Both the position numbers and the translations under genes were made by a program. From Methylomarinum sp. Ch1-1 (GTDB taxonomy: Bacteria; Pseudomonadota; Gammaproteobacteria; Methylococcales; Methylomonadaceae), in NCBI RefSeq assembly GCF_030717995.2, contig NZ_CP157743.1, positions 1,426,001 through 1,490,000 of the forward strand: DNA of 64,000 nucleotides, in the 5' to 3' direction. Below, piece by piece: positions 12,039 to 38,804 of this stretch (position 1 is the stretch's first letter; every line of letters starts with the position of its first letter). The notes below the pieces were generated by a model. The model saw only the letters and a program-made list of their open reading frames with translations, did not search any database and was not told the DNA's origin.

Positions 12039-12296
12039 TTTTAAGAGGGAGTAGGTTATTGATTTATCGGGCTGTCTGCAACAGGACGTTGCAGTCAGAG
12101 CTTACGCCGCACAAGGAAGTGCAAGTGTAGCGTGAAGCAGGATGCTGTCAGCTGCCAGGGAAGTATTCACCCAGCACCTAAATACCATAGACTATTGGCA
12201 ATGATTTATAATCGTCGTTTATTTAGATGCTGGGTGAACGCGTCCCGAGAAATCAATGACCTACTGCCTAAAACCTGAAAGATACTGAATAGTTAC
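12022..12296. mobile_element. MITE family 1, copy b (275 bp), at the end of rsmD
   Basis: The inverted ends are GTAATTATTCAG (12022) and GTAACTATTCAG (complement, ending at 12296). The flanking 8-mers GTTTGAGC (12014-12021) and GTGTAAGC (12297-12304) agree at 6 of 8 positions and look like a decayed target duplication. The interior holds two extra inserts relative to the short form: a hairpin repeat with CACCCAGCACC arms (about 12168-12236) and a diverged 51-bp-type unit (about 12110-12150). Its left end supplies the last codons and stop of rsmD. Confidence 0.85.
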
Positions 12297-12325: not shown

Positions 12326-12396
12326 GCCGCCGACATCCTCGCCAAACACTCCCCAAGCCCTAAATACTGCTAAAACGCTCAAATTGAGAATTGCTG
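12326..12396. mobile_element. MITE family 2, fragment
   Basis: The right half of a family-2 element, matching the complement of the complete copy at 35258-35423 (GCCGACATCCTCGCC, then CCCCAAGCCCT and the end GAGAATTGCTG at about 12396). The left half is missing. It lies between MITE copy b and coaD. The rest of the 12297-12467 gap shows only the coaD upstream region, with TATAAA at about 12432. Confidence 0.7.
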
Positions 12397-15314: not shown

Positions 15315-15471
15315 GCGCTCAAGCCTACATGAACATATTCACCCAGCACCTAAATTCCATAGGTTAATGGCTGCGATAAATCATCTTCGTTTATTTAGGT
15401 GCTGGGTTCATGGCGTCTTCTGGAAGAGCTATCCGATACAGGCTGGTTTCTTAACCCGAACTCAGATTAAT
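15315..15471. repeat. Hairpin repeat with CACCCAGCACC arms, copy 1
   Basis: An intergenic repeat nearly identical to 24790-24944. Its core is an inverted repeat, TTCACCCAGCACCTAAAT (15338-15355) with ATTTAGGTGCTGGGTTCA (15393-15410). The same core is inserted in MITE family 1 copies b, c and e. The rest of 15248-15567 contains only the upstream region of the MFS gene. Confidence 0.85.
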
Positions 15472-17280: not shown

Positions 17281-17485
17281 TAGGCGCCAGCCATTCCCCG
17301 TTTGAGTATTTTTGCGGTGTTTAGGGCATGGGGAGTGTCTGTCGAGGAGCGCCGTTCACCCAGCACCTAAATTATCCTGGAATGTAAAATATAGTCCAAT
17401 AGCCATGGAATTTAGGTGCTGGGTGAACGCGTCCCGAGAAATCAATGATCTACTCCCTAAACCCTGAAAGATACTGAATAGTTAC
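17281..17485. mobile_element. Chimeric MITE: family-2 left part joined to family-1 right part (copy c)
   Basis: From about 17289 to 17345 the sequence matches the left half of family 2 (TTTGAGTATTTTTGCGG, then TTTAGGGCATGGGG and GTCGAGGAGCGCC). At 17346 it switches to the family-1 interior (TTCACCCAGCACCTAAAT hairpin) and ends in the family-1 terminus GTAACTATTCAG (complement, ending at 17485). No left family-1 end and no target duplication could be found. The remainder of 17248-17697 is the upstream region of the next gene. Confidence 0.75.
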
Positions 17486-35126: not shown

Positions 35127-35257
35127 ATATCTTCCTCAAAACAGAGATTGTGGGTTAAATTTCGGCCCTATTATAAAGCCTTGTCATTGTCTAGTCTTGT
35201 TTAGCTTTCCAGCCATGACATCGGGATTCACTGGAGTCGGGGAATTTTCGTATTCGG

Positions 35258-35423
35258 CAGCAATTCCCACTTTGGCGTTCAAAAAGGGCATGGGGTGTGT
35301 TTGGCGAGGATGTCGGCAGCAAGGATGCTGCCGTCAAGCCCCCAGGGATGGGTTTACGGCGCTCCTCGACAGACACACCCCATGCCCTAAACCCCGCAAA
35401 AATACTCAAACTGGGAATTGCTG
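35258..35423. mobile_element. MITE family 2, complete copy (166 bp, 9-bp TSD)
   Basis: The perfect inverted ends are CAGCAATTCCCA (35258-35269) and TGGGAATTGCTG (35412-35423). A perfect direct repeat CGTATTCGG flanks it (35249-35257 and 35424-35432). The interior carries GCTGCC-rich hairpins and no gene. It lies between divergent pgk and the VWA gene. Confidence 0.88.
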
Positions 35424-35503
35424 CGTATTCGGAGTATCCATCGAATAACTCGTTAATTAGGCTATAGTTGTAAGTCATGACATCAACTTAAGGTAGAAAG
35501 GTT

Positions 35504-37348
35504 TTGATCAAGGCTAAGGCGAGAGCGATTTTCTTGGGCTGTCTGCTGTTATGCGGCGCGACGAACGCGACGGCCCAAAACGGCCAAGCCGGTGGCTATG
35601 AAGTTGATGTGCTGATCGATGTATCCGGCAGCATGAAACGGAACGATCCCGGCAATAAACGCATTTCTGCCGTCAAACTGCTGATCAATTTATTGCCCGA
35701 TGGCACGCGGGCCGCTATCTGGCTATTTGCGCAAAACACCCATCTGCTGCTCAAAACCGCCGCGGTGGATAAACAATGGAAGCAGCGAGCCCTGGTCTTG
35801 GCCGATAAAATTCATTCCCGAGGCTTGCTAACCGATATTGAAGGCGCCATTCAGACCGTGCTAAGGGAGGATATTGCGCCGGGATCGAGTAATAACCTGA
35901 TTTTATTGACCGATGGCAGGGTCGATATCTCCGACGACATCATGCAAAGCGCGGAATCGCGACAGCGGGTAATCAGCGATTTGATTCCGGTTCTGCAGCG
36001 GCAACGCATCAAGGTGCATACCATCGCGCTATCCGATCAGGCTGATCGGGAATTGCTGGATAAGCTGTCATTCGGCACCGGCGGCTGGGCCGAAGCGCTC
36101 GAATCGGCCGAACAATTGCAGAAAACCTTGCTGACGATGTTTAACAAGGCCCTGCCGCAGGACACCGTGCCGATCAAGGATAATCGTTTTCTCATCGATG
36201 ATGCGGTCAAGGAGTTTTCGCTATTGGTGTTCAAGAAGGCAGGGGCTGCGCCGACCCGACTCATCGGTCCAAATGGTGAAAAACTGAGTCGCCAAACCCG
36301 GAGAAAAAAACTGTCCTGGGTTCATGATCAACATTATGACTTGATCACCGTTCAGCAGCCTAGGGTCGGTCTATGGCGAATCGAAGCGGAGGTTGATCCC
36401 GATAATCAGGTGATGGTGATGACAGATTTAAAGCTCCAGGCCAGCGATTTGGCCGCTCATATCGTCGAAGGCGAAGAGCTTGAGTTGACGGCGTATTTGA
36501 CCGAACAGGGTGAAGTGATCCGGCGTGATGATTTTTTACAATTGATAAACATCGTGCTGTTGCATGTCGATGAAATGAACGGCAAAAGCGAGGTTGCGTT
36601 ACAGAGGGGACAAGACGGATTATTCAAACACAGTTTCGGTGCCGCGTTGGGCAAAGGCCGGCATACACTGAAGATTGTCGCCGATGGTAAGAGTTTTCGG
36701 CGCAAACTGCTAAAAACGATAGACATCGTGGAATCGGTGCTGACTGTCCATCGTTTTGTCGATGCCGACCGGCGCGCCGTGGTGTTGGAATTGCAGCCTA
36801 ATGACAAGATTATTGATCCGGCGATGCTGGCCGCTCAAGCCATCGTCAATGTCGCCGATAAACCGGCTGAAACGATTGCGATGCAAAAGCAGCAAGGACG
36901 CTTGCGTTTGAGCCTCGATTGGCCGGCAAAAGGCGAAAAAATCATCGTCAACTTTGCCGTGATGGCAAAAAAACTGGACGGCACGCCGATGACGCCTAGC
37001 CTTAAGCCGGTCATCATCGATGAACCGGCATTACAATCACGGCATCCACCAGATGCTGCATTGGCGGCCGTAGCCCCCCCTGAAAGAAACGAGGAAGCTG
37101 ACGCGTTAAGTTCGCATCGACGAGATTATGTGAACGGAGGCGCGGATAAAATAGTCGGTTCCGGGCACACTATCGAGGAAAGCCACGCCGACGCCTCGGA
37201 AACGACGCGGCAAGGGGAGTGGACGCTGCTAATTGGGCTCGTTGCCGGGGGGAACTTGTTGCTGCTAGGCGGCGCTTTTTTGGGCTACCGGTTGATAAGA
37301 AAAAGAACAACAAACAAACATGCGCAATTACTGGGTAGACTGAAATGA
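35504..37348 (+). CDS. Membrane-anchored von Willebrand factor A domain protein
   Basis: A 614-residue exported protein. A signal peptide (residues about 1-24) is followed by a VWA domain (about 33-215) with the metal site DVSGSMK (DxSxS, about 38-44) and LLTDGRVDIS. Beta-rich segments (about 230-510) follow, then a low-complexity linker and a single membrane helix (LLIGLVAGGNLLLLGGAFLGYRL, about 575-600) with a short basic cytoplasmic tail. It resembles TIGR03503-like VWA proteins of unknown function. The start is a TTG with AAGGTTT-type spacing from a purine-rich stretch; the next gene overlaps the stop by 4 nt. Adhesion or envelope complex assembly is a guess. Confidence 0.82.
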   Translation: MIKAKARAIFLGCLLLCGATNATAQNGQAGGYEVDVLIDVSGSMKRNDPGNKRISAVKLLINLLPDGTRAAIWLFAQNTHLLLKTAAVDKQWKQRALVLADKIHSRGLLTDIEGAIQTVLREDIAPGSSNNLILLTDGRVDISDDIMQSAESRQRVISDLIPVLQRQRIKVHTIALSDQADRELLDKLSFGTGGWAEALESAEQLQKTLLTMFNKALPQDTVPIKDNRFLIDDAVKEFSLLVFKKAGAAPTRLIGPNGEKLSRQTRRKKLSWVHDQHYDLITVQQPRVGLWRIEAEVDPDNQVMVMTDLKLQASDLAAHIVEGEELELTAYLTEQGEVIRRDDFLQLINIVLLHVDEMNGKSEVALQRGQDGLFKHSFGAALGKGRHTLKIVADGKSFRRKLLKTIDIVESVLTVHRFVDADRRAVVLELQPNDKIIDPAMLAAQAIVNVADKPAETIAMQKQQGRLRLSLDWPAKGEKIIVNFAVMAKKLDGTPMTPSLKPVIIDEPALQSRHPPDAALAAVAPPERNEEADALSSHRRDYVNGGADKIVGSGHTIEESHADASETTRQGEWTLLIGLVAGGNLLLLGGAFLGYRLIRKRTTNKHAQLLGRLK

Positions 37349-37998
37349 TAGAACTCGATTCGGCCATGATTATTTTGATGACGGAAGTGTTGGTAGGCTT
37401 GTTGGCGCTGGCTGTCGTATTGCTGATTATGTACGGTAAAAGAAGAAGTCGGGAGCATGCGGCGGCCAATGAACTGATTAATCGCTTGGAGCAGGCGGAA
37501 ATCAGTCGCGGCAAGAAGCTGGGGCAGCTGATCAGGGAAAATTGTGTCATCGACAATGACAAGCTAAAGGATATTTTGAAAGAGATTGGTCGTTGCGAAC
37601 AGGCTTTGTACCAGCAGATTTTGCAAATATTTTTGAAACGCGATGTCGCGATGTTGAAAGAAATAGATCGCTATATCAACAAACTGGCCATTCCCTATTG
37701 TCAAGTCATACAGGATGCGAATAGCGCATCAACGCCCGGCGACAACGAGGAATTGGAAGAGGCTAAGGCGCAAATTAGTCGCTTGAAAAAAGAAGGTGTG
37801 CTGCTGTCGGAACAGTTGCAGATGGCCATGAAAACGATGGACGAGATCTCAGCCGAATATACCCGGGTGTTCAGCGGCAAACAGAGTGAACTAGAGCTGG
37901 AAAACAGCAGTAAAAAAATGCTGCGGATTTTTCAGGAAGCCGAGAACACGATACGTTCGTCAGTCAAAGAAATCGAGGATGCGGAGGATCAGGCATGA
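37345..37998 (+). CDS. Small membrane coiled-coil protein A of the VWA operon
   Basis: A 217-residue protein of no family known to me. An N-terminal membrane helix (about residues 8-30) is followed by basic residues (KRRSR), a helical domain (about 36-120) and a coiled coil (about 130-205). The cytoplasmic bulk is predicted from the positive-inside rule. Its helix plus first 110 residues align by eye with the next protein. ATG overlaps the VWA stop codon as ATGA, and its own stop overlaps the next start by 4 nt, so the three products are probably made in fixed ratio. Confidence 0.7.
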   Translation: MIELDSAMIILMTEVLVGLLALAVVLLIMYGKRRSREHAAANELINRLEQAEISRGKKLGQLIRENCVIDNDKLKDILKEIGRCEQALYQQILQIFLKRDVAMLKEIDRYINKLAIPYCQVIQDANSASTPGDNEELEEAKAQISRLKKEGVLLSEQLQMAMKTMDEISAEYTRVFSGKQSELELENSSKKMLRIFQEAENTIRSSVKEIEDAEDQA

Positions 37999-38489
37999 AT
38001 GAAGCATTGTTGATTGTGTTGGCCGAGATTATCTTCATTCTATTGATGTTATTGCTGACGCTCTTGTTTGTCGATTGGAGGCGTAAAAGAAATCATCATC
38101 GGGCCTTACAACAGTTGCTGAATGACGTTGTCGAAAAGGAGGACCAGAGAAAGGCGTGCTTGATCGACTATTTGACCGACCGCCGAAAATTGCCTCATCA
38201 AATCGCGGATGATTTAAGCGCGGACTTCGTCGAGGCGGAAAAGCAGTTTATCTCCCAGTTTCTTGAGCAACAAATGAAGCAGGCGGGCGTGAGCGATTTT
38301 TATGAGAATTTGTGCCTATTGCTGGATAAATATTTAATCCTGATGCCTGCCGAAAAAAGCCCGGAGGAGCGGTTGCGGCCAAATGACGCCAAGCATGAGC
38401 AGAAGACTCATGGGCTTAATTCGGTAGAGTCCGATTGGGATATGGCGTTTGCCGAATCCGGAGCAGGCGTCAATGAATCGGTAAGATAG
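37995..38489 (+). CDS. Small membrane coiled-coil protein B of the VWA operon
   Basis: A 164-residue protein with the same plan as its upstream neighbour: membrane helix (about 5-26, IVLAEIIFILLMLLLTLLFV), basic segment (WRRKRNHH), then a helical domain to about residue 115 and a polar, probably disordered tail. The two share the pattern of a leucine-asparagine pair, an acidic-arginine helix and a phenylalanine-leucine-rich helix, suggesting duplication. No enzyme motif is visible. It overlaps the preceding gene by 4 nt and ends the trio. Confidence 0.68.
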   Translation: MNEALLIVLAEIIFILLMLLLTLLFVDWRRKRNHHRALQQLLNDVVEKEDQRKACLIDYLTDRRKLPHQIADDLSADFVEAEKQFISQFLEQQMKQAGVSDFYENLCLLLDKYLILMPAEKSPEERLRPNDAKHEQKTHGLNSVESDWDMAFAESGAGVNESVR

Positions 38490-38520: not shown

Positions 38521-38804
38521 GTAACTATTCAGCTTGGTGTTGAGAAAATATTTTTGTAATTATTCAGCGTATTTTTATCAGAGGGAGTAGGCTATTGATT
38601 TATCGGGCTGTCTGCAACAGGACGTTGCAGTCAGAGCTTACATGGAAGTATTCACCCAGCACCTAAATTAACGAAGATTATTAATCATAGCCAATAACCT
38701 AGGGTATTTAGGTGCTGGGTGAACGCGTCCCGAGAAATCAATGGTCTACTCCCTAAACCCTGAAAGATACTGAATAGTTACATATTTTTAAAGTAAACAG
38801 TTAC
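38521..38804. mobile_element. Outer MITE-like remnant, interrupted by MITE copy e
   Basis: The left end is GTAACTATTCAG (38521); the right end, read on the complement from 38804, is GTAACTGTTTAC. The flanking 8-mers AGTTCTGC (38513-38520) and AGCTCTGC (38805-38812) agree at 7 of 8. Only about 35 and 15 bp of the outer element remain around the inner insertion 38556-38781. Confidence 0.6.
38556..38781. mobile_element. MITE family 1, copy e (226 bp, 8-bp TSD)
   Basis: The inverted ends are GTAATTATTCAG (38556) and GTAACTATTCAG (complement, ending at 38781), with a perfect 8-bp target duplication ATATTTTT (38548-38555 and 38782-38789). The interior contains the hairpin insert with CACCCAGCACC arms (about 38651-38722). 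It sits inside an older element of the same family. Confidence 0.9.

Follow-up and report, generated by a model that had tools for sequence, protein, structure and literature searches.

In the window, by which we mean the whole 64,000-nucleotide stretch of DNA analysed here from the methanotroph Methylomarinum sp. Ch1-1, three overlapping genes, called A, B and C below, encode a membrane module. It is probably a VWA-bearing variant, not recognised before, of a kind of motility regulator that became known only recently (MotW, reportedly first described in 2022), and B and C form a new partner family. On balance, we favour a role of the three proteins as a MotW-like membrane complex that regulates flagellar motility, perhaps that of polar flagella. 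The genes occur almost only in flagellated bacteria, and the probable task of the module is therefore to connect a sensor on the outer side of the inner membrane with the control of swimming. The architecture of the proteins, the homology of A with the TIGR03503 family, the linkage of A and B, the joint absence of the VWA domain and B in one lineage and the co-occurrence with flagellar genes are directly supported.

Gene organization

Gene A (positions 35504-37348) starts with TTG and encodes 614 amino acids, gene B (37345-37998) encodes 217 and gene C (37995-38489) 164; all three are on the + strand. Four-nucleotide ATGA overlaps join A to B at 37345-37348 and B to C at 37995-37998, in agreement with the sequence-only reading made earlier of this DNA. 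That reading also assumed a fixed stoichiometry of the three products, which is unsupported, because the overlaps are evidence of no more than translational coupling and C is confined to one order.

Between pgk and A, a nested inverted repeat is present at 35257-35424, with related arms near 12340, 17325 and 52740. A palindromic short non-coding element with arms TTCACCCAGCACCTAAAT is located at 38582-38754 and has copies near 12166-12238, 15338-15410, 17355-17427 and 24812. The window has at least five occurrences of it, with nine arm matches against 0.02 expected, and it is like a dispersed MITE or stem-loop element.

Architecture of protein A

The AlphaFold2 model of A, calculated with 48 relatives in the alignment, has a mean pLDDT of 87.9 and a pTM of 0.75. 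It contains, in order, a signal helix, a VWA domain, three beta domains and a disordered linker, and closes with a single long helix at the C-terminus; all of these are encoded on the + strand. The signal peptide (residues 1-24, MIKAKARAIFLGCLLLCGATNATA; 35504..35575) forms the hydrophobic N-terminal helix H2-24 of the model. The VWA domain comprises residues 32-216 (35597..36151) and scores 36.3 bits with Pfam VWA_3, for a cut-off of 27. Foldseek matches A to VWA structures, such as the VWA domain of CLCA1 (TMt 0.80), and to integrins and chains of the Ig/FN3 type. None of the MIDAS residues Asp39, Ser41, Ser43, Thr110 and Asp137 varies among the 48 relatives. Three consecutive Ig-like beta domains follow (approximately residues 220-506; 36161..37021), with pLDDT values mostly above 90, and then the linker (37037..37213), in which residues 529-569 have values below 50. 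The membrane helix (37217..37291) belongs to model helix 572-613 and is followed by a short basic tail. Asn584, in the membrane helix (codon 37253-37255), is also invariant in the 48 relatives.

The earlier description of A as a signal-peptide VWA protein with a C-terminal anchor and a metal site is thus borne out by the Pfam match, by the signal and C-terminal helices of the model and by the intact MIDAS. The envelope complex proposed at the same time stands in so far as the three genes form a conserved membrane module whose VWA metal site is intact, but A is not wholly unrecognised, being related to TIGR03503.

Proteins B and C

Protein B consists of an N-terminal membrane helix, a cytosolic helical domain and a coiled coil with the conserved sequence TMDEISAEYTRVFSG. 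Its model is all-helical; a long helix extends from the membrane, followed by a short bundle and the coiled coil. Glu14, in the membrane helix (codon 37384-37386, + strand), is invariant in the B alignment. Protein C has the same plan plus an acidic tail. The two had been suspected of being duplicates and are true paralogues: a search in their own genome relates them with E=0.009 and 22% identity, and hhalign profile-profile comparison gives 99.3% over 175 columns, both profiles being derived from the same joint alignment. Among the 74 sequences of a tree, the 19 C proteins all cluster exactly as one group (support 0.94), so that C stems from a single later duplication, seen only in Methylococcales in this sample.

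Neither small protein matches a Pfam or NCBIfam family above cut-off, so the expectation that they would not fall into known families of unrelated function was correct. Matches below the cut-offs (nuclear receptor coactivator, DUF4381, MshEN and others) were considered noise. The MshEN c-di-GMP motif reaches 15 bits in B (E 0.016), for a curated cut-off of 38 bits, and its corresponding invariant residues are absent from the B alignment. Structure searches with B returned generic helical matches only (best Foldseek E 1.3; best VIA-align Z 7.8, in the range labelled uninformative for helical models), and no C-ring domain was detected by Pfam or NCBIfam in B or C of the window. In some lineages, B has a very long acidic tail made up of repeats, many of the EPEAEP type, and reaches up to 1167 amino acids in total (L078:5937-7805, L155:7918-11421 and L135:7702-10386 are examples).

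Conservation and gene neighbourhood

In a sample of 274 genomes drawn evenly across the Gammaproteobacteria, A, as a TIGR03503-type protein, is present in 78. A B-like gene directly follows A in most of the best 80 loci from public genomes; several of the remaining loci end too early to judge or have a B below the profile threshold. The two genes overlap by four nucleotides or nearly abut in most loci, and the pair is kept across many gammaproteobacterial families. Conservation of the whole trio, as envisaged before, therefore holds for A and B and not for C, which is the Methylococcales duplication. Clustering of the neighbours in the 80 loci revealed no other constant partner; the pgk, metZ-like, acyltransferase-like and TonB-receptor neighbours, named by eye from their sequences, are each confined to subgroups. 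A and B thus make up a stand-alone unit. All three genes are present in Methylomonas sp. LW13 (L099).

Two genomes of the same order contain second A-like copies (L073:7423-9974 and L074:6961-11966), one with a B-like partner of 300 amino acids and the other followed by a hybrid histidine kinase of 1163 amino acids. At L079:9217-14791, A and B are followed by a REC-TPR protein and two proteins of the histidine-kinase type, which may serve as the signalling output there. A locus titled 'Bacteroidetes bacterium', from a metagenome-assembled genome (L106), has a gene layout nearly identical to that of Methylomonas sp. WSC-6 (L105); its label is probably a binning error.

Co-occurrence with flagellar genes

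FliM is encoded by 73 of the 78 genomes with A and by 70 of the 196 without it (p=4e-20, odds ratio 26, kinship being ignored). For FlhF, the counts are 72/78 and 64/196 (odds ratio 25), and at least one of the two markers is present in 75/78 and 72/196, respectively. In a logistic model including genome size and ccoN, an unrelated respiratory gene used as control, FliM is the sole significant predictor (likelihood-ratio p=3e-13, with no tree correction). Within the order of the window genome, 22 of 23 genomes with A have FliM, against 17 of 38 without A, and the association holds both in its own family and in the rest of the order. About half of the flagellated genomes are without A. The exceptions to the link are G081, G098, G200 and G330: A is present in three sampled genomes that have neither FliM nor FlhF, among these G081, which is 99% complete, and G330, of the same order as the window genome, has A and lacks FliM.

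These exceptions are compatible with a general envelope sensor or adhesion protein, in which the VWA/Ig ectodomain binds a periplasmic or wall ligand and B and C feed unrelated signalling; flagella would then correlate with A since both mark free-living, signal-rich genomes. No flagellar or chemotaxis operons adjoin the A, B and C genes, and some loci adjoin histidine kinases, REC-TPR or REC-GGDEF proteins, as such a sensor would allow. However, FliM remains predictive beyond genome size and ccoN, its association with A is maintained inside the order, and a short-form relative of A matches a protein with a motility phenotype (PMC8789113). We regard the general sensor as possible, at perhaps one chance in four.

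A role together with FimV at the cell pole or in type IV pili, in twitching or pole organisation and not in swimming, seems improbable. FimV is indeed commoner in genomes with A (72/78 against 141/196, p=2e-4), and MotW interacts with HubP, a FimV homologue (PMC8789113), but the odds ratio of 4.7 is far below those of FliM and FlhF. PilT, present in 257 of the 274 genomes, does not discriminate, and FimV is likewise too widespread to be a good marker. An assignment of A to the BatA/BatB-like, MoxR-linked 'aerotolerance' type of VWA protein can practically be set aside: its VWA fold matches BatB structures in Foldseek and a few A relatives match Bat models weakly, but all relatives match TIGR03503, far above any Bat model, and MoxR and DUF58 are absent among the recurrent neighbour clusters of the 80 loci, as read by eye.

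Tail motifs and proposed mechanism

If the module is a motility regulator, as we favour, the tails of B and C may be the parts that reach the flagellar machinery. The tail of C contains the sequence ESDWDMAFAES (38427..38459, + strand), similar to the N-terminal motif of FliN. The FliN of the same genome, encoded in a flagellar locus (L181), has the DWxxAM motif twice in its N-terminus (GDDWAAAMDEQ...EADWGDAMKEQ). Tails of B and C such as LSDEDIDSLLQGA and EPDWGDAFAESG resemble FliM of the same genome (LLSQDEIDALLHG) and the EADWGDAMKEQ sequence of FliN, the likeness being limited to short peptides. DWxxAF, the motif at the end of C tails, was seen 18 times in them, against 0.1 in shuffled tails, and DIDALL 24 times in B and C tails, against 0.8; as the motif classes were picked after viewing the tails and the sequences are related, these shuffle counts overstate independence. 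Scored with a position-specific matrix from seven FliN motifs, the divergent copy in C of the window is equalled or exceeded by 5.5% of tail shuffles; it is not significant alone, and the motif claim therefore rests on the family. Many B tails are without any such motif. Among the matches examined to the genome-wide DNA pattern DW[ADEG]xA[FMIL], an in-frame motif in acidic context is found only in C and FliN.

The EIDAL motif of FliM binds CheY (PMC6946799), and FlhG contacts the FliM N-terminus (PMC12826062). The likeness of the tails to these motifs suggests that B and C may tether CheY, FlhG or the C-ring, or compete for them. In the proposed mechanism, A would be anchored in the inner membrane, and its VWA and Ig-like domains would face the periplasm; there, either the VWA metal site would take up a ligand or the protein would bind a polar landmark, FimV/HubP for example. 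The membrane helix of A, with Asn584, may pair with those of B and C, which bear an invariant or near-invariant Glu, at position 14 in B and 11 in C, and B and C would pass the signal to the cytosol. There, the acidic tails could present peptides similar to the FliM and FliN N-termini, biasing motor switching or speed. The sensing half of this scheme is based on homology and architecture, the transmission and peptide half on conserved residues and tail motifs. We consider peptide mimicry by the tails unlikely, at about one chance in five. Of nearly the same, marginally higher standing is an integrin-like transmembrane motor switch, a tentative idea in which a ligand at the pole or in the wall occupies the VWA metal site, the Asn of A and the Glu of B and C relay the resulting state within the membrane, and the FliM/FliN-like tails draw CheY, FlhG or another motif reader off the motor or bring it there.

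Relation to TIGR03503, MotW and MotV

With NCBIfam TIGR03503, a hypoth_equivalog, A scores 116.6 bits (E 1.2e-33), below the cut-off of 305.6, and the model is matched by all 48 A relatives. A strict member (L077, 416.7 bits) is without VWA domain; the A profile matches it with 99.8% (E 2e-30) over 370 columns, spanning all Ig-like domains and the membrane helix. These comparisons of sequences place A in the wider TIGR03503 family. The three Ig-like domains, the C-terminal membrane helix with a conserved Asn and the short basic tail are shared, whereas the N-terminal VWA domain and the partner B (and C) are additions of A. The sequence-only reading had recognised no named system of this composition, which remains so for B and C, as they match no known family, but not for A. 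No solved structure was found to match a strict TIGR03503 protein by sequence, and a literature search for 'TIGR03503' found no mention.

In the order of G139 and of the L077 genome, all 27 short-form loci lack the VWA motif, and dnaQ, called from its exonuclease motif, precedes the short-form gene in 20 of them. B adjoins A in all three long-form loci examined there, two of which have the VWA motif by pattern, and in none of the 27 short-form loci. As long forms occur with B and short forms never beside it, the VWA domain and B appear to have been gained or lost jointly. The B profile has a single weak match (E 0.12) in the TIGR03503-bearing genome G139, to a sequence like a chemoreceptor coiled-coil. 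VC2233 of Vibrio cholerae, which we take to be dnaQ, would correspond to the dnaQ genes next to short forms, and this fits VC2232, the MotW gene, as a TIGR03503 gene; a literature search found nothing naming 'VC2233' together with 'dnaQ'. The putative identity of strict TIGR03503 members with MotW is thus based on architecture and synteny.

MotW was called specific to V. cholerae in a 2026 paper (PMC12918733). If our reading is true, MotW represents a single branch of a family encoded by over a quarter of the sampled Gammaproteobacteria; the long form of this family has a VWA domain and dedicated cytosolic partners, both missing together from the branch studied so far. B and C would then be partner genes that the Vibrio system could not reveal, and the module a candidate route from a periplasmic signal to the flagellar switch.

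In V. cholerae MotW, a signal peptide is followed by three Ig-like domains, a single membrane helix near the C-terminus and a short, positively charged tail; HubP places the protein at the pole, and deletion of MotW leads to less tumbling and a lower swimming speed (PMC8789113). By this published description, MotW and the strict TIGR03503 members have the same architecture, and the model of A contains each of its elements, with the Ig-like domains predicted to be periplasmic. A is, on this evidence, a putative distant relative of MotW, although MotW is described as having neither a VWA domain nor linked partner genes. B is comparable, by description only, to MotV (VC1909; ZomB in Shewanella), a helical protein with an N-proximal membrane helix and about 230 cytosolic residues (PMC8789113); unlike that of B, the MotV gene is unlinked.
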